Made by a program: the position numbers and the translations under genes
Assembly: GCA_021783455.1 (NCBI GenBank)
Contig: JAJXTW010000007.1
Location: forward strand, 1 to 32,024
DNA length: 32,024 nucleotides
Direction of reading: 5' to 3'
Source of the DNA: Nitrospirota bacterium
GTDB taxonomy: Bacteria; Nitrospirota; UBA9217
In this document: positions 1,129 through 8,796 of the stretch, piece by piece
Position numbering within the stretch: position 1 is the first letter of the stretch
Layout of the letters: every line of letters begins with the position of its first letter
The notes under the pieces: generated by a model
What the model was told of the DNA's origin: nothing
What the model saw: only the letters and a program-made list of their open reading frames with translations
Database searches by the model: none

Positions 1129-3648
1129 ATGCTCGAAGATTTTCTTCCGCTTGTCGCAAAACCTGCCAGGTACATCAACAGCGAGGTCAACGCCGTACAC
1201 AAAGATCTCGGGCAGGTGAAGACCACGGTCTGCCTTTTCTTTCCGGACACCTACGAAGTCGGCATGTCGCACCTCGGCCTGCGGATCCTCTACCACATCC
1301 TGAACAGCAGGAGCGATGCGGCATGCGAGCGGGTGTTTTCCCCCTGGACGGACTATGAAGCACGGCTGCGCGCATCGGGCAGGCCGCTCACGAGCCTCGA
1401 GTCCAATCTTCCGCTCGCAGCGTTCGACTTGATCGGCATTACGCTCCAGTACGAGCTGTCCTATTCCAATATTCTGGCAGGCCTCGAACTGGCCCGGATA
1501 CCCCTGCGCGCGGCGGACCGGACCGCGGAGCACCCCGTCATTATTGCAGGCGGCCCCTGCGCCGTGAACCCCGAGCCGCTTTCGGACTTCATCGATGTTT
1601 TTTTCATCGGTGAGGCCGAGGAGGCCATGCATGAACTCGTTGAACTCCGGCAGGCCCACGTTGACAAGGCGTCGTTCCTCGAAGCGCTTGCAGCCCGCGA
1701 CGGCTACTATGTCCCCGCGCTCGGCAAAAGGACGGTCCGCAGGCGTTTCATGAAGGACCTTGAGTCCGCGCCCTTTCCGGACAAGCCGCTTTTGCCGCTC
1801 ATGAAACCGATCCACGATCGCGTGACCGTGGAGGTCGCGCGCGGCTGCATTCGCGGGTGCCGCTTCTGCCAGGCGGGAATTATTTACCGCCCCTACCGCG
1901 AGCGGAGCGCCGGGCGGGTCAAAGACCTTCTCCGCACATCGCTCCGTTGTACCGGCTATGATGAATTGTCGCTGGCATCGCTCAGCTCCGGCGATTACTC
2001 GGATATTCAGCCCCTCATGCAAGACCTTGTTACGACCTATCGCGACGACAGGATTTCCATTTCCCTTCCTTCCCTTCGCATCGGGACGCTCACGCCCGGG
2101 ATGATCCGGGCAGTTGCCGGCGTCCGCAAGTCCGGCTTCACCCTGGCGCCGGAAGCGGGCACGGAACGGCTTCGCCGCGTGATCAACAAACCGGTTTCCG
2201 ACCAGGACCTTCTGAATGCGGCAACGACGATTTTCTCCAGCGGCTGGAGCGTCCTGAAACTCTACTTCATGATCGGGCTGCCCACCGAGACGAACGAGGA
2301 CTTGGACGGCATTATCAGGATCGCCCAGGACCTCCTCATGGCGGGCAAGCGGTCTTCACGGCGTCCAATACAGATCAACATCACCGTCTCCACGTTCGTG
2401 CCGAAGCCCCATACGCCCTTCCAGTGGTTCGGCCAGGCAACACGGGAAGAGATCAGGGCAAAACAAACTTACCTGGAAAAAGGCCTTCGAAAAAAAGGAA
2501 TATCGCTCAAGCCTCATCATGCGGAAACGAGCCTGCTTGAGGGCGCCTTTGCGCGCGGAGACAGGAGCGTCGGCAGGGTCATCGAAGAGGCAGTGCGGCT
2601 CGGCTGCCGCTTCGACGGCTGGTCCGAGTGTTTTGATTTTGCGAAATGGCAACAGGCGTTCCAAGCCTGCGGCATGGATCCGGCCGCGCTTGCGTCCCGC
2701 ACCTACGCTCTCGACGAAGCCCTGCCCTGGGACCACATCCAGAGCGGCGTCACGAAAAAATTTCTGCAAAGTGAGTACGAACGGGCCCAGGCCGCGGAGA
2801 GCACGGAAAATTGCCGCGAGAAGTGCGAGCGCTGCGGCATCGGCTGCACGGACGGCGGCACAGCACTGCTCGGAAAACCCGCCCTGCCCAAAGACAAGGA
2901 GTGCGCCCCGGAGCCAAGGGCAAGCAATGTGCGTGATTCGTTCGAAAGGGGGGAAAAGGCCCCTTCGCGCCAAAACCTCGATGTACGGTACAGAATGAAA
3001 TTCACAAAAATTGGGCGGTTGCGATTTTTATCCCACTTGGACCTGATGGCCCTTTTTCAACGGGCGGCCGCACGGGCAGGAATTCCCATCGCTTTTTCCC
3101 AGGGCTTTAACCCCCATCCGAAGATCTCCTTTGGCCCCGCCCTTTCCGTAGGCATAGAAAGCGTGTCGGAATATCTGGACATGGAAACGAGCACCTACGT
3201 CGAGCTCCAGGAGCTGACAAAAGCCCTGAACAGCGCGCTTCCGGAAGGCGTCAAAATTCTCGAATCCCGGGTGGTCTCTCCGAAAGCGCCTTCCCTTTCG
3301 GGAAGCATCAGTCGGTATACCTACGAGGTTGCCGTACCAAAGCGCTCTTTCCATGACGTGGCCGAACTGGCAGCCTCCTTCTTGTCCCGCGAAGCAGTCA
3401 TCGTAGCAAAAGACGGAAAGCAGAAGGACATCAGGCCCTGCATCGAGTCGATCAATGTTAACGCAAAGAACAACGCCGTGGAAATCGAAATAGTCCTGGT
3501 TGATCACGGCCAGCAAAAGCCCCGGATCCAGGACGTGCTGGGTCAGCTCTTTGCGGTCACTGCGGAAGAGTCTCACCTGTTCGGCGTACGGCGTACGGGA
3601 TTGTACTGCGAAGAAAAAGGCCAATGGGTGCCTCCGATTTCGCTCTAA
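1129..3648 (+). CDS. Radical SAM protein (TIGR03960-type) fused to DUF2344 radical-SAM-linked domain
   Basis: This 839-residue protein has a B12-binding-like N-terminal region (about 1-200) followed by a radical SAM barrel. The cluster motif is C240-x3-C244-x2-C247 (GCIRGCRFC), which should bind a [4Fe-4S] cluster for S-adenosylmethionine cleavage. A cysteine-rich linker, CREKCERCGIGC, lies near residues 562-573. From about residue 618 comes a DUF2344 domain (TIGR03936, 'radical SAM-linked protein'), with FLSHLDLMALFQRAAARAGI and SQGFNPHPKISFGPALSVG. The two families are usually neighbouring genes or a fusion, commonly beside rng, as here. The substrate is unknown; an RNA or ribosome role is only suggested by the rng neighbourhood. 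The ATG start at 1129 is preceded by TGAGGT. Confidence 0.9.
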   Translation: MLEDFLPLVAKPARYINSEVNAVHKDLGQVKTTVCLFFPDTYEVGMSHLGLRILYHILNSRSDAACERVFSPWTDYEARLRASGRPLTSLESNLPLAAFDLIGITLQYELSYSNILAGLELARIPLRAADRTAEHPVIIAGGPCAVNPEPLSDFIDVFFIGEAEEAMHELVELRQAHVDKASFLEALAARDGYYVPALGKRTVRRRFMKDLESAPFPDKPLLPLMKPIHDRVTVEVARGCIRGCRFCQAGIIYRPYRERSAGRVKDLLRTSLRCTGYDELSLASLSSGDYSDIQPLMQDLVTTYRDDRISISLPSLRIGTLTPGMIRAVAGVRKSGFTLAPEAGTERLRRVINKPVSDQDLLNAATTIFSSGWSVLKLYFMIGLPTETNEDLDGIIRIAQDLLMAGKRSSRRPIQINITVSTFVPKPHTPFQWFGQATREEIRAKQTYLEKGLRKKGISLKPHHAETSLLEGAFARGDRSVGRVIEEAVRLGCRFDGWSECFDFAKWQQAFQACGMDPAALASRTYALDEALPWDHIQSGVTKKFLQSEYERAQAAESTENCREKCERCGIGCTDGGTALLGKPALPKDKECAPEPRASNVRDSFERGEKAPSRQNLDVRYRMKFTKIGRLRFLSHLDLMALFQRAAARAGIPIAFSQGFNPHPKISFGPALSVGIESVSEYLDMETSTYVELQELTKALNSALPEGVKILESRVVSPKAPSLSGSISRYTYEVAVPKRSFHDVAELAASFLSREAVIVAKDGKQKDIRPCIESINVNAKNNAVEIEIVLVDHGQQKPRIQDVLGQLFAVTAEESHLFGVRRTGLYCEEKGQWVPPISL

Positions 3649-3986: not shown

Positions 3987-5492
3987 ATGCCATCTGAGAT
4001 CATCGTAAACGCAGGCCGCGAGGAAACCCGCGTGGCCCTTCTTGAGAACAGCCTCGTCACGGAAATCTACATCGACCGGAAAAAGGACCGCGGCATCGCC
4101 GGCAACGTCTACAAAGGCAGGATCATGAAGGTCCTGCCCGGCATGCAGGCTGCGTTCATCGACATCGGCCTGGAGAAATCCGCGTTCCTCTACGTCGGCG
4201 ATGTCTTTGACAGCTCGTCGGAATACACGCCCCTGATGGAAGACGAGGGCCTGGAGCTCGAGGTCGAAACGAAACGGAAACGCGCCCACGCAAACCAGAT
4301 CGAAGACCTGTTGCAGGAAGGGCAGGAAATCCTCGTGCAGGTATCGAAAGAGCCGATCAGCACCAAGGGCGCGCGGGTCACGACCTACATCAGCATTCCC
4401 GGCCGCTACCTCGTCATGATGCCCGGCGTGAACCATATCGGCGTCTCGCGCAGGATCGAGAACGGCGAGGAGCGGAAGCGGCTCCGCGAGATCGTGAGCC
4501 GCTTGCGGAAGCCGAATACGGGCTACATCATCAGGACCGCCAGCCAGGGCAGGAGCGAAGAGGATTTCGTGGCCGACATAGAGTTTTTGAGCAGGCTCTG
4601 GGACAACGTCCAGAAGAAAAAAGAGCGGGCTTCGGCGCCGGCGCTCCTGCACAACGAACTCGACCTGGTCTTCCGCGTGATCCGCGACGTGTTCAGCCGA
4701 GACGTGGACAGGATGGTCATCGACTCTCCCGACGAGTACCAGCGCGTCAGGGAATTCGTCGATTCCTATATTCCGCCGCTTTCCCGGCGGGTGAAGCCCT
4801 ACGACGGCGACGACCCCATCTTCGACCACTACGGCGTGGAGATCGAGATCTCCCGCGCCCTGGGCAGAAAGGTCTGGCTCAAGTCGGGCGGCTACATCAT
4901 CGTGGACCAGACCGAGGCCCTCGCGGCGATCGACGTGAACACCGGCAGGTACGTGGGCAAGCGCACGCTCGAGGACACGATCTTAAAGACGAACCTCGAG
5001 GCCGTGCGGGAGATCGCCTACCAGCTCCGTCTCCGGAACATGGGCGGCATCGTCGTTCTGGATTTCATCGACATGGAGCGTGAGGACAACCGCAGGAAAG
5101 TCTATTCAGCGCTCCAGGAAGCGCTGGCGAACGACAAGGCCAAGACCACGATCTCGCACATCTCGCCCATCGGTCTTATCGAGATGACCAGGAAACGCAT
5201 CCGGGAGAGTCTCGGCCGCACGCTCTGCGAGCCCTGCCCCTACTGCGACGGCCGCGGCTACATCAAGTCGAGCCGCACCATGTGTTACGAGGTCCTGCGC
5301 GAACTCAGGAGGGCCTTCTCGAGCGCAGACGAAAAGAAGGCCCTCGTCACCGTCAATTCCGTCGTGGCCGATATGCTGTATGACGAGGAGCGCCAGGGCG
5401 TGGAAGAACTGGAAAAGGAATTTCAGAAGAAGATCGTGATCAAGGCAGACCCGAATCTGCACCAGGAGCAGTATGAAGTGGTGATGGTGTAA
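3987..5492 (+). CDS. rng: Ribonuclease G (RNase E/G family)
   Basis: RNase G is a 5'-end-dependent endoribonuclease that matures 16S rRNA and degrades mRNA in the cytoplasm. The 501-residue length fits RNase G, lacking the long C-terminal scaffold of RNase E. An S1 RNA-binding domain spans roughly residues 38-125 (GNVYKGRIMKVLPGMQAAFIDIG). The catalytic metal-binding aspartates are in AIDVNTG (D316) and VVLDFIDME (D359). The zinc-link motif CPxC is at C417-P-Y-C420, with an additional C414. The start is ATG with AAGGAG 7 nt upstream. The final 31 codons are duplicated in degenerate form at 7182-7274. In many genomes rplU-rpmA follow rng, but not here. Confidence 0.96.
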   Translation: MPSEIIVNAGREETRVALLENSLVTEIYIDRKKDRGIAGNVYKGRIMKVLPGMQAAFIDIGLEKSAFLYVGDVFDSSSEYTPLMEDEGLELEVETKRKRAHANQIEDLLQEGQEILVQVSKEPISTKGARVTTYISIPGRYLVMMPGVNHIGVSRRIENGEERKRLREIVSRLRKPNTGYIIRTASQGRSEEDFVADIEFLSRLWDNVQKKKERASAPALLHNELDLVFRVIRDVFSRDVDRMVIDSPDEYQRVREFVDSYIPPLSRRVKPYDGDDPIFDHYGVEIEISRALGRKVWLKSGGYIIVDQTEALAAIDVNTGRYVGKRTLEDTILKTNLEAVREIAYQLRLRNMGGIVVLDFIDMEREDNRRKVYSALQEALANDKAKTTISHISPIGLIEMTRKRIRESLGRTLCEPCPYCDGRGYIKSSRTMCYEVLRELRRAFSSADEKKALVTVNSVVADMLYDEERQGVEELEKEFQKKIVIKADPNLHQEQYEVVMV

Positions 5493-5584
5493 GGCAGTTT
5501 GATGTGCAACTGACTAAAAACCGGTCGAATTCCGGGATCAGGCCAAGGACCCGGAGTGTTGCCCCAAAATTCGGGAGTTGTACA

Positions 5585-7102
5585 ATGATTAATCTGCTTT
5601 CGGAACTATTTTCCCGCCAGTCGAAATCCGCAGGCGGGAGTGGGCCGTCCCGGGCGCTGGAGGGAGATTCGGCCGTGCTCGCCGCATCGGCCGCAGGAGG
5701 CGCATCAGAATCACGGGGCCTGTCCTGGGTCAAGAGCGCCTGCACCCGCTTCTTCTCGGGCCTTGACCCGATTGTGCCGATGATACTCATGGCGGCGGTG
5801 GTAGGCTTTATCAGTTCCCTTTCCGTTGAATTGTTTCGCAAAGGAATGTATACGATCGTCAGTCTCTATTCCACCCATGAACATCTCGTGGCTGCTGCGC
5901 GCGATTTACCGTTGTGGATGCGGGTATTAGTACCCACGCTCGGAGGTCTTGGCGGAGGGTTGATAATGTGGGCGGGCCACCGCTGGATCAAGCGCCCGCA
6001 CGGACCGGAATATATGGAGGCGGTGCGTATCGGCGACGGCATCCTGCCTCTCGGACCGAATCTCGTTCGGACCGTTGCATCGCTGGTCGGGGTCAGCGGA
6101 GGCATTACCATCGGCCGCGAAGGAACGATGATCCAGTTCGCCTCCGTGACATCGTCTATTCTTGGACGGCTGGCCCGCGTGGACGTCGCCCACCGCCGGC
6201 TGATCGTCGCCTGCGGCGCTGCAGCGGGTTTTGCCGGTGCTTATCACGCGCCGATCGCGGGCACTCTCTTCGTTGCGGAAATCATCCTCGGGGGGCTGGC
6301 GCTGCGGGAGATTACCGCCGTGCTGGTTGCGGCGGTCATCGGCGAGCTGACCACGCAGGCGCTGTTCGCCACCGGTCCGCTCTACATTTCACACGTCGTA
6401 CCGGCAGTGGGATTTTCTGATTTATTCGATGCATCACTCCTAGGGTTAATGGCCGGCCTGCTCGGCCCCGCGTTCCTGTGGCTGCTCGCCACCGCAAACC
6501 ACAGGTACCAGGCCCTCATTGGTTTTTTGCCGCTGCGCATGGGCGTGGCCGGACTAGGCATCGGGCTGTTGTCGACATTGCGCCCGGAGGTCTGGGGCAA
6601 CGGGTACAGCATTATTGAATCGTTTTTCGTTTCGCACTGGGCGTTGAGCGCGGTAGCGGCGGTGTTCGTGCTGCGGTTGATTGCCGTGACGTTTGCCAGC
6701 GCCGCGGGCATCCCCGGCGGCGTGCTCACCCCCACGTTGCTGCTGGGCGGGGCCATGGGATTGCTGGTAGGCCACACGATGCTGATACCGTCGGCCGACC
6801 ATTCGCAGACGCTGTGGATACTGGTCGGGATGGGCAGCTTGCTGGCGGCAACCACTCACGCACCGGCGATGTCCGCTATCATGGTCTTCGAGCTCACCCG
6901 TAACTACAACGTCGTCCTGGCAGCGATGCCTGCCTGCGTGATCGCATCGGTTATCGGGAGCCTGTTGCGGCATCGTTCCGTCTACGCCGAGGCCCTGGGC
7001 CTGGGCAGGGGCATGCACGCTACGCCTGCCCCTCAGCGCCAGGCATTTCCGAGCCGCAGCCCAAGTCCCGGCGATTCCCCTTCTGTTCGCGTTGACAAGT
7101 AG
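5585..7102 (+). CDS. ClcB-like voltage-gated chloride channel / Cl-/H+ antiporter
   Basis: This 505-residue polytopic membrane protein belongs to the ClC family, which moves Cl- across the inner membrane, usually coupled to H+. Visible motifs are GREGTMIQ with the gating glutamate at E179, AEIILGGLALREI in the proton-path region, and GIPGGVLTPTLLLG. The canonical GSGIPE filter loop is replaced by HGPEYMEAVRIGDG, a pattern I associate with the ClcB branch. There are no C-terminal CBS domains; the tail is a short Pro/Ser-rich segment. I chose ATG 5585 because GGGAG lies 7 nt upstream; the same frame also opens at GTG 5504 without a binding site. The gene lies between the true rng 3' end and a decayed second copy of it, so it probably arrived by recombination. 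Confidence 0.88.
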   Translation: MINLLSELFSRQSKSAGGSGPSRALEGDSAVLAASAAGGASESRGLSWVKSACTRFFSGLDPIVPMILMAAVVGFISSLSVELFRKGMYTIVSLYSTHEHLVAAARDLPLWMRVLVPTLGGLGGGLIMWAGHRWIKRPHGPEYMEAVRIGDGILPLGPNLVRTVASLVGVSGGITIGREGTMIQFASVTSSILGRLARVDVAHRRLIVACGAAAGFAGAYHAPIAGTLFVAEIILGGLALREITAVLVAAVIGELTTQALFATGPLYISHVVPAVGFSDLFDASLLGLMAGLLGPAFLWLLATANHRYQALIGFLPLRMGVAGLGIGLLSTLRPEVWGNGYSIIESFFVSHWALSAVAAVFVLRLIAVTFASAAGIPGGVLTPTLLLGGAMGLLVGHTMLIPSADHSQTLWILVGMGSLLAATTHAPAMSAIMVFELTRNYNVVLAAMPACVIASVIGSLLRHRSVYAEALGLGRGMHATPAPQRQAFPSRSPSPGDSPSVRVDK

Positions 7103-7175
7103 CCAGGGCACGGGCCCCAGTCCGGACCCACGGGCGATTGTTTTTAAATATGCTTTGCGCAAGCGACCCACATTG

Positions 7176-7274
7176 CAGCAGGTGGAAGAGCTGGAGAAGG
7201 AATTCCAGAAGAAGATCGTGATCAAGGCTGGCCCCAACCTGCACTAGGAGCAGTATGAGGTGGTGATGGTGTAA
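7176..7274 (+). pseudogene. Degenerate second copy of the rng 3' end
   Basis: Bases 7182-7274 align without gaps to 5400-5492, the last 31 codons of rng. I count 84 identities in 93 positions. Seven of the nine differences are synonymous (for example GAA/GAG, TTT/TTC, AAT/AAC). One changes Asp to Gly and one turns CAG into TAG. Similarity fades just upstream of 7176. The dominance of synonymous changes means most divergence arose while the sequence was still coding. The likely source is therefore a related rng allele or an old duplication rather than a recent copy. Confidence 0.93.
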
Positions 7275-7336
7275 GAGAGACGTCCAAAAGAAATTCCGCA
7301 GTTTCTATATGAGTCTGCGGCAAATGATGCAAAGAT

Positions 7337-7364
7337 GTCGGGGTTCGCCTGCACTTAACCCGAC
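7337..7364 (-). terminator. Weak hairpin downstream of the DUF4160-DUF2442 pair
   Basis: An inverted repeat pairs about 8 bp (GTCGGG-TT with AACCCGAC, one bulged G) around an 11-nt loop, some 20 nt past the minus-strand stop at 7384. No good T-run follows on the minus strand, so termination is only possible. A second perfect 6-bp stem, CCGCAG/CTGCGG, lies at 7296-7301 and 7315-7320. Confidence 0.25.
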
Positions 7365-7383
7365 CTGCTCTATGCATATTACA

Positions 7384-7653
7384 TTATTTGGTTTTTGCGG
7401 TTGACTTTGTCCTGTCGCCAATGCCTAACAAGAGACCTTCTACGCTGATATCTTCGTCCAGTTCATCCCAATGTATCCCTGTACCCCCGCCGCTCAGTTC
7501 ATATTGTTGAAGCTGTTTGCCCGTCGCATGCAGTAGCCGTGGGAAATAGGCCAAGGGAACTGAAAGTTGTCTTCCATCGGTGAGTTCCAGCCAAATATTC
7601 GCTTCATCAAACCAGACTCTTTTAGCCGCCGCCGTGACTGACAAAGTGATCAT
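7384..7653 (-). CDS. DUF2442 family protein
   Basis: This 89-residue protein has the DUF2442 pattern: a beta-rich start (VWFDEANIWLELTDGRQLSVPLAYFPRL) and the closing signature IHWDELDEDISVEGLLLG. I start at ATG 7653 because AAGGAGG lies 6 nt upstream (complement of 7660-7666). The frame also allows ATG 7680 without such a site. It overlaps the end of the DUF4160 gene by 32 nt, so the two are co-transcribed and probably translationally coupled. DUF2442 domains occur elsewhere fused to helix-turn-helix domains, consistent with an antitoxin-like or regulatory partner. That role is inference; no enzymatic residues are recognisable. Confidence 0.85.
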   Translation of the reverse strand: MITLSVTAAAKRVWFDEANIWLELTDGRQLSVPLAYFPRLLHATGKQLQQYELSGGGTGIHWDELDEDISVEGLLLGIGDRTKSTAKTK

Positions 7654-7879
7654 GCCAAGCCTCCTTAATCTTCGATTCATTTTCCTGTATGATATTTTCT
7701 ATTTCTTTTAATTCCGAGGGGCTCATTTCGTAAGCCTCAGCGAGAGATATCTGCGGCTCTATCCAAAATTTTGCCACTCGTGCTCCGTTTCTCACATGCA
7801 CGTGAACCGGCTCCAAGGGATTCCCTTCGTTTGAGAAAAAGAAAAGACGATAGCCTCTATATCTCGCAATTACCGGCAT
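7622..7879 (-). CDS. DUF4160 family protein, partner of DUF2442
   Basis: This 85-residue protein matches DUF4160: MPVIARYRGYRLFFFSNEG at the start, then the EPVHVHVRNG segment with two histidines and AKFWIEP. A helical tail follows (SPSELKEIENIIQENESKIKEAWHDHF). DUF4160 and DUF2442 genes are commonly adjacent and have been suspected of forming toxin-antitoxin-like modules. I cannot tell from sequence whether this one is toxic. It is the promoter-proximal gene of the pair, with a strong promoter about 30 nt upstream and no strong Shine-Dalgarno. The 5' leader is only about 20 nt. Confidence 0.85.
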   Translation of the reverse strand: MPVIARYRGYRLFFFSNEGNPLEPVHVHVRNGARVAKFWIEPQISLAEAYEMSPSELKEIENIIQENESKIKEAWHDHFVSHGGG

Positions 7880-7906
7880 CCGGGGTTCCCTCGTGCGCTT
7901 TGTAAA

Positions 7907-7935
7907 ATTATATTAGTTTCTATGATTCATAGCAA
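7907..7935 (-). promoter_or_regulatory. Promoter of the DUF4160-DUF2442 pair with embedded palindrome
   Basis: On the minus strand, TTGCTA (complement of 7930-7935) and TATAAT (complement of 7907-7912) are separated by 17 nt, near the sigma-70 optimum. A perfect 13-nt palindrome, CTATGATTCATAG, covers 7920-7932. It lies in the spacer and overlaps the -35 box, where a repressor would block RNA polymerase. Confidence 0.75.
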
Positions 7936-8019
7936 GACAAAATACGAGCAAAGGGAAAGTGCGGACGCGGAGACAAGTTCAATATTCACCCGATAGAACC
8001 GTTCGAGAACAGGCTCTGC

Positions 8020-8796
8020 TCAGGGTTCGGAGGGAGGAAACCGCGTCCGGGAAGGTTTCGCCAATTTCGTTGAGGGTGCCGCGGGCTCGCTCTGGTGATC
8101 AATGCGGCCTACGAGCATCGCAAAGAATTCCGGCACTTCCGCTTCGAAGGTGAGCCGCTTGTTGCTAACAGGATGGTTGAAGGAAATCCGTCTCGCATGG
8201 AGCGCCATGCGCGGCTGCGCCCTGTCCTCTTTTCCGTACTTTGTGTCGCCTACGATCGGGTGGCCGATGCCGGCGAGGTGCACCCGTATCTGGTTCTTCC
8301 TGCCCGTCAGCAGCGTCACTTCCAGCAACGAAAGGCCTTTTATCTTCTTGAGCACTGTGTAAACCGTGCTGGAAAGTCTGCCCTTTGTGCTGTCGGACGT
8401 GGAATAAACGTTATACTGCTTGTCCTCCGCCAGGAAGGTCGTAATGGTGTCCGAGCTCTTTTCGCAGGTGCCGTGGACCACGGCGAGGTACTTCTTTTCC
8501 GTTTCTTTCCACCGGGCCTTCAAACGGAGCATCGCCTCTTCGCTCTTTGCAAAGATGAGCACCCCTGAGGTGTCCCTGTCCAGCCGGTGAACAACGAAGA
8601 GATGCTTGCGGCCTCTCCCGCAGCCCGTGCTGATGTAATCCGTCAGCAGGGAGTGGGCTGTGCGCGATTTTTCCCTCTCCGTGGCAACCGCCAACAGGCC
8701 CGCCGGTTTGTCCACCACAAGGATGTCTTTATCCTCGTAGAGGATTCCGAGCCCTTTCGATACAAACCTGATGTTTGAAGGAGACCGTCTTCGCAT
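8020..8796 (-). CDS. RluA-family pseudouridine synthase
   Basis: The 258-residue enzyme isomerises uridine to pseudouridine in rRNA or tRNA. The family signature HRLDRDTSGVLIFAK includes the catalytic aspartate D73. A second conserved block, LLTGRKNQIRVHLAGIGHPIVGDTKYG, follows near residue 165. The N-terminal S4 RNA-binding domain of RluC/RluD is absent; the protein begins directly at the catalytic core (LYEDKDILVVDKPAGLLAV). The substrate position cannot be assigned. The C-terminal 25 residues are Pro/Ser/Lys-rich and probably disordered. The ATG start at 8796 has no strong ribosome binding site. Confidence 0.93.
   Translation of the reverse strand: MRRRSPSNIRFVSKGLGILYEDKDILVVDKPAGLLAVATEREKSRTAHSLLTDYISTGCGRGRKHLFVVHRLDRDTSGVLIFAKSEEAMLRLKARWKETEKKYLAVVHGTCEKSSDTITTFLAEDKQYNVYSTSDSTKGRLSSTVYTVLKKIKGLSLLEVTLLTGRKNQIRVHLAGIGHPIVGDTKYGKEDRAQPRMALHARRISFNHPVSNKRLTFEAEVPEFFAMLVGRIDHQSEPAAPSTKLAKPSRTRFPPSEP

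Follow-up and report, generated by a model that had tools for sequence, protein, structure and literature searches.

A second rng tail and a putative toxin-antitoxin pair behind a ClcB-like gene in a Nitrospirota bacterium

Results

Genes and repeats at the rng locus

We analysed a stretch of 32,024 nucleotides from a Nitrospirota bacterium (hereafter the window), in which the RNase G-family gene rng is followed by a ClcB-like gene, clc, and by a pseudouridine synthase gene, rlu. G001 and G002 are the two other sampled genomes of the same genus. The region is laid out as follows.

3987-5492, + strand: rng, RNase G family, 501 aa, intact (PF10150, 360 bits; TIGR00757, 529 bits)
5400-5493, + strand: resident rng 3' tail, the reference copy in the repeat comparison
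5585-7102, + strand: clc, ClcB-like chloride channel/transporter, 505 aa (PF00654, 231 bits)
7103-7166, + strand: clc 3' flank, common to G002 (to about 7166) and G001 (to about 7120)
7182-7275, + strand: second rng tail, pseudogenised, which opens the window-only segment (repeat comparison; absent behind clc in G001 and G002)
7276-7383, no strand: spacer that follows the second tail, with 46% G+C and without counterpart at the sister loci
7384-7653, - strand: DUF2442 protein, DhiA-like putative antitoxin, 89 aa if started at the ATG at 7653 (98 aa if at 7680) (PF10387, 88.1 bits, cut-off 23.9)
7622-7879, - strand: DUF4160 protein, DhiT-like putative toxin, 85 aa (PF13711, 71.4 bits, cut-off 23)
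7973-8019, no strand: rlu 3' flank, right limit of the window-only segment, 91% identity with G001
8020-8796, - strand: rlu, RluA-family pseudouridine synthase (PF00849), same position in G001 and G002

The stretch 5400-5493 recurs at 7182-7275 as a direct, ungapped repeat of 94 nt, including the G after the stop codon, with 90% identity and a spacing of 1782; no other repeat of the window equals it in strength. The initial annotation had described this repeat accurately: over the 93-nt coding tail (5400-5492 against 7182-7274) there are 84 matches without gaps, and the nine differences comprise, by codon, seven synonymous changes, one missense change (D to G, 7230) and one nonsense change (Q to TAG, 7245). 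With this D to G change and internal TAG, the second tail is a pseudogenised rng fragment. A search of all 302 contigs of the genome returned only these two true copies of the rng tail, the second with an E value of 2e-31. A 51-nt match on contig C78 falls inside an ABC-F gene and was discarded as chance similarity.

It had been stated that clc lies exactly between the copies, which is a fair description of the arrangement, but neither copy abuts the gene: clc sits 92 nt 3' of rng and 79 nt 5' of the second tail. The second tail begins mid-gene at 7182, at an abrupt junction without homology. At its other end, the homology to rng reaches the stop codon but not the rng-clc spacer, which is 88% conserved between the window and G001. 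An end exactly at the stop codon is what a donor with different DNA behind rng would give.

Gene order in related genomes

The comparison set consisted of 13 other genomes of the family, including G001 and G002, and rng orthologues (82-99%) were found in 12 of them. The order rng-clc is present in all three sampled genomes of the genus; G001 and G002 have rng-clc-rlu-GGDEF, as in the window, and G002 also has panC. Most of the other family genomes with a long enough contig have rng followed directly by a GGDEF gene and panC, without clc and without rlu, and in G009 other genes lie 3' of rng. Because of this arrangement in most of the family, clc and rlu are hence additions made at the rng locus within the genus. 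The absence of rplU-rpmA downstream, which had been pointed out before, is uninformative, since in the family genomes examined rng has other genes behind it, in most cases the GGDEF gene and panC. The rlu gene is found at the rng locus only in the genus, and its nearest homologue in the family (G009, 82%) is located on a contig other than that of rng.

Each of G001 and G002 has a single rng tail, with no second tail behind clc; among the genomes sampled so far, the second tail is seen in the window alone. Of the segment 5493-7274, for which the initial annotation proposed a check in sister genomes, clc is present in both and the second tail is missing.

These loci bear on a site-specific integration, in which clc or a decayed island would have entered the rng 3' end and the two tails would be attL and attR. 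Integrating elements often use the 3' end of a gene as att site, and the stop codon is also where the repeat terminates. Nevertheless, only clc lies between the repeats, without an integrase or other mobility gene, and the sisters carry the supposed island without attR. Integration of the att type is thus largely refuted, and we give it the smallest chance of all the readings considered here. As for a phage or attP origin, a degenerate rng-tail pattern matched three viral contigs, none of which encodes rng, and this candidate was rejected.

Acquisition and spread of clc

A close homologue of clc was found in none of the 11 family genomes outside the genus, which contain only distant homologues (26-31%). 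Close homologues (72-77%) are scattered across two other families of the phylum, with a second copy in G002, and a match at E<=1e-60 occurs in 13 of 396 phylum genomes. The DNA generally common to the clc loci across families is limited to about 1.4-1.7 kb around clc. The distribution is therefore patchy and the flanks unrelated, as is expected of a laterally acquired gene. Given the lack of a close homologue in the 11 other family genomes, clc is a genuine lateral acquisition by the genus at the rng locus, and its scattered close homologues with little shared DNA around them make it look like a moving single-gene module. The comparison of codon usage proposed in the initial annotation places clc lowest among its neighbours, yet with positive log-odds. 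A search for an rng tail in the flanks of the distant clc homologues returned none; in one genome (G319) a 40% RNase E/G relative lies 3.6 kb from a distant clc homologue.

Across Nitrospirota families, clc homologues about 78-87% alike were seen in mostly unrelated surroundings (loci L216-L223). The second clc copy of G002 (L152, G002:C317, 357-1787) groups with clc of other Nitrospirota families and adjoins a REP-type transposase-like gene (2210-3052), named by sequence inspection only.

Recombination within clc

The dS value between the window and G001 is 0.23 for clc and 0.07-0.14 for the neighbouring genes. The site patterns of clc among the three genomes of the genus are arranged in blocks: neighbouring sites show the same pattern in 92 cases, where 51.5 would be expected (p<=5e-5). 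Window-only blocks lie at about 5718-5965 and 6391-6634, the region of about 6004-6371 contains G001-only together with G002-only states, and after about 6640 mainly G002-only states are found. The clustering of rng site patterns among the same three genomes does not reach significance (p 0.09). The clc gene is thus a recombination mosaic among the three genomes and, because its site patterns are mosaic, homologous exchange among congeners is real here. This exchange reaches the rng stop codon or the rng tail, and window states private against both sisters are numerous between 5447 and a point well into the 5' part of clc.

At its 3' end (6687-7137), clc is 95-99% identical to G001, similar to the neighbouring genes. 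As this last 0.5 kb is no more distant from G001 than the surrounding genes of vertical descent, clc was probably already present before the window and G001 lineages split.

The window-only segment and its toxin-antitoxin pair

Between clc and rlu, the window carries a segment of about 0.8 kb (about 7167-7972), which begins with the second tail. In G002, the homology of the clc flank extends to about 7166, a few bases short of the second tail, and the DNA beyond is unrelated. In the alignment of the clc-rlu interval, the DNA between the shared flanks is unrelated in each of the three genomes, and the right junctions 3' of clc differ among all three. When the clc-rlu spacers of G001 and G002 were searched across the family, only the known flanks and a weak 71% match of the G001 spacer in G005 were obtained. 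Each sister has a different orphan sequence as spacer (L034 4960-5120; L035 8025-8160), and the interval is a local hot spot of insertion or turnover. The G+C content of the window-only segment is 46%, compared to 56-63% in the neighbourhood, and the segment is of foreign composition.

The toxin-antitoxin pair at 7384-7879 is absent from the initial annotation. The DUF4160 gene precedes and overlaps the DUF2442 gene on the - strand, which gives a toxin-first order, and both genes are intact. The score against the DhiT equivalog model NF048015 is 21.4 bits, below the cut-off of 100. From its domains, the pair is predicted to be a DhiTA-type (DUF4160/DUF2442) toxin-antitoxin pair, not a DhiT equivalog. 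The two genes have a G+C content of 45-49% and negative codon log-odds, compared to positive values for every neighbour. A related DUF4160/DUF2442 pair (77%) is located after valS in G002 and, given this other location, the pair is one that moves.

A segment seen in one genome only could also be an assembly chimera, in which the rng tail region of a second strain was joined behind clc. The genome is a draft of 302 contigs, probably metagenome-derived, with 89% completeness and 3% contamination. Against a chimera, the identity of the two tails is no more than 90%, G002 has the clc flank before 7166 as well, 7166-7182 contains no repeat likely to mislead an assembler, and the stop codon in the second tail means that it is no stray working rng. 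We consider such an artefact very unlikely.

Ancestry of the second tail

At 5447, 5453 and 5456, all third codon positions, the rng of the window differs from that of G001, and the second tail has the G001 states (GCT, CCC, AAC). Because these states are common to the second tail and G001, the second tail does not appear to be a fresh copy of the resident rng. It differs from the G001 rng at six sites, which include the missense and the nonsense change. Its branch length is 0.08, roughly 4-8 times those of the window rng and the G002 rng, as for a decaying fragment. In the trees of the tails against the rng of relatives, as proposed in the initial annotation, the maximum-likelihood position of the second tail is near G001 with 48% support, a weak placement from a 90-nt tail; of nine placements tested, the one with G005 alone was rejected and the other eight were not. 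The initial annotation had named as evidence against its own reading relatives with rng-clc and no second tail, which is what the sisters have, together with a tail recently copied from the same rng and changed at random, which is not what was found.

A topology that unites the second tail with the rng of the window is not rejected (AU p 0.09), which leaves room for a duplication of the resident rng tail within the genome, with no transfer. The nine differences between the tails, the G001-like states at the three sites where the window tail is private, and the foreign composition of the DNA that adjoins the second tail make this a reading of very low probability.

The branch length is additionally compatible with neutral decay since the ancestor of the genus (the rng dS between the window and G002 is 0.126). 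The second tail may then be an ancestral one, displaced when clc entered in the genus ancestor, and G001 and G002 would later have lost the tail and the toxin-antitoxin pair by separate deletions or replacements. The high lability of the spacer in the sisters agrees with such losses. Nevertheless, at least two losses are needed, the sister spacers are not sub-sequences of the window segment, and the clc flank of G002 is kept right up to the tail position, so that we regard this history as improbable.

Origin of the window-only segment

The tail and toxin-antitoxin segment is present in the window and absent at the G001 and G002 loci. The explanation that we favour, with a probability of about 0.5, is the illegitimate joining, behind the resident clc, of a fragment that carried an rng tail and a toxin-antitoxin pair and came from a relative in which clc did not follow rng. 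The resident gene order in the genus would be rng-clc-rlu. In the window lineage only, a fragment would have arrived from a close relative whose rng had no clc directly behind it, carrying the last 93 nt of rng, the region downstream and the DhiTA-type pair, and either end-joining or homology-facilitated illegitimate recombination (HFIR) would have attached it behind clc. The second rng tail would be the ragged end of this fragment, functionless since then, which later gained the stop and the missense change. The toxin-antitoxin pair would be the probable cargo, and may help to hold the segment in place. We infer the donor gene order, the joining mechanism and the retention by addiction; rng followed by this toxin-antitoxin pair, the order expected of the donor, was searched among the genomes and none was found. 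A recombined tract is seen on the rng/clc side, and the rlu flank shows no excess of window-only changes; the right end would therefore also be illegitimate, or joined on very short homology.

Alternatively, as in the reading of the initial annotation, clc could be the newcomer. The window lineage would have had rng-toxin-antitoxin-rlu, and an incoming congeneric rng 3' end with clc and its flank would have recombined homologously within rng and, illegitimately, 93 nt before the resident stop codon, leaving the resident tail behind clc. One illegitimate junction suffices here, while the favoured explanation needs two, and the outcome is achievable by HFIR (PMC3240628). The private window states from 5447 into the 5' part of clc, three of them within the resident rng tail, at sites that have kept the G001 states in the second tail, also agree with this alternative, as do the right junctions behind clc, different in each of the three genomes. 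Nevertheless, clc at its 3' end, together with the flank, is as near to G001 (95-99%) as the vertically inherited neighbours, clc is at the same place in both sisters, and the residual spacers by rlu are non-homologous among the three genomes, although the same resident DNA would be expected. The arrival of clc in the window lineage thus accounts less well for the 3' end of clc and for the sister loci than the joining of a toxin-antitoxin fragment behind clc, and we consider it unlikely. A further possibility, which we rate as distinctly less probable still, is that in this genus one-sided recombination is repeatedly anchored at the rng 3' end: clc would have been delivered several times independently behind rng, with another illegitimate right junction each time, and the one junction located inside rng, which left a tail, would be that of this genome.

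Of the initial proposal that homologous recombination with incoming DNA brought clc to the resident rng, the acquisition of clc and an exchange from the rng stop codon through clc are retained. The second tail as the scar of the arrival of clc is not supported: both sisters have rng-clc without the tail, and the tail belongs to the window-only toxin-antitoxin segment.

Discussion

The repeat adds a new case to a familiar class of recombination scars, and its donor was not found. The locus preserves a legible record of laterally joined genes in a sparsely sampled Nitrospirota lineage, represented here by draft genomes only. From a gene-tail scar, the wrong neighbour can be taken for the newcomer, as here the sister genomes indicate the toxin-antitoxin segment, not clc. 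In addition, the single-gene clc module is present in several Nitrospirota families with no shared neighbours, and recombines internally.

The locus resembles genomic islands in gene 3' ends in that acquired DNA is flanked on either side by copies of a gene tail, but it differs by the lack of an integrase, the imperfect 90% repeat and sisters without the second repeat.

The dhiTA system of Dickeya dadantii has DUF4160/DUF2442 domains, with the toxin gene first and overlapping genes (PMC8198452). The window pair scores far below the DhiT equivalog cut-off, belongs to a Nitrospirota host and is known here from its sequence, but it shares with dhiTA the domain pair, the toxin-first order and the gene overlap (PMC8198452).

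In transformable bacteria, HFIR integrates foreign linear DNA by homology at one end and an illegitimate join at the other, and may leave a partial gene copy at the junction (PMC3240628). ComEC-domain genes and DprA genes were each found in two of the three draft genomes of the genus, and uptake of linear DNA in the genus is possible. The window locus departs from HFIR in that there is no donor/recipient pair, the favoured explanation has no identified anchoring homology and competence is represented by genes only; it is like HFIR in its abrupt junction without homology and its partial gene copy (PMC3240628).
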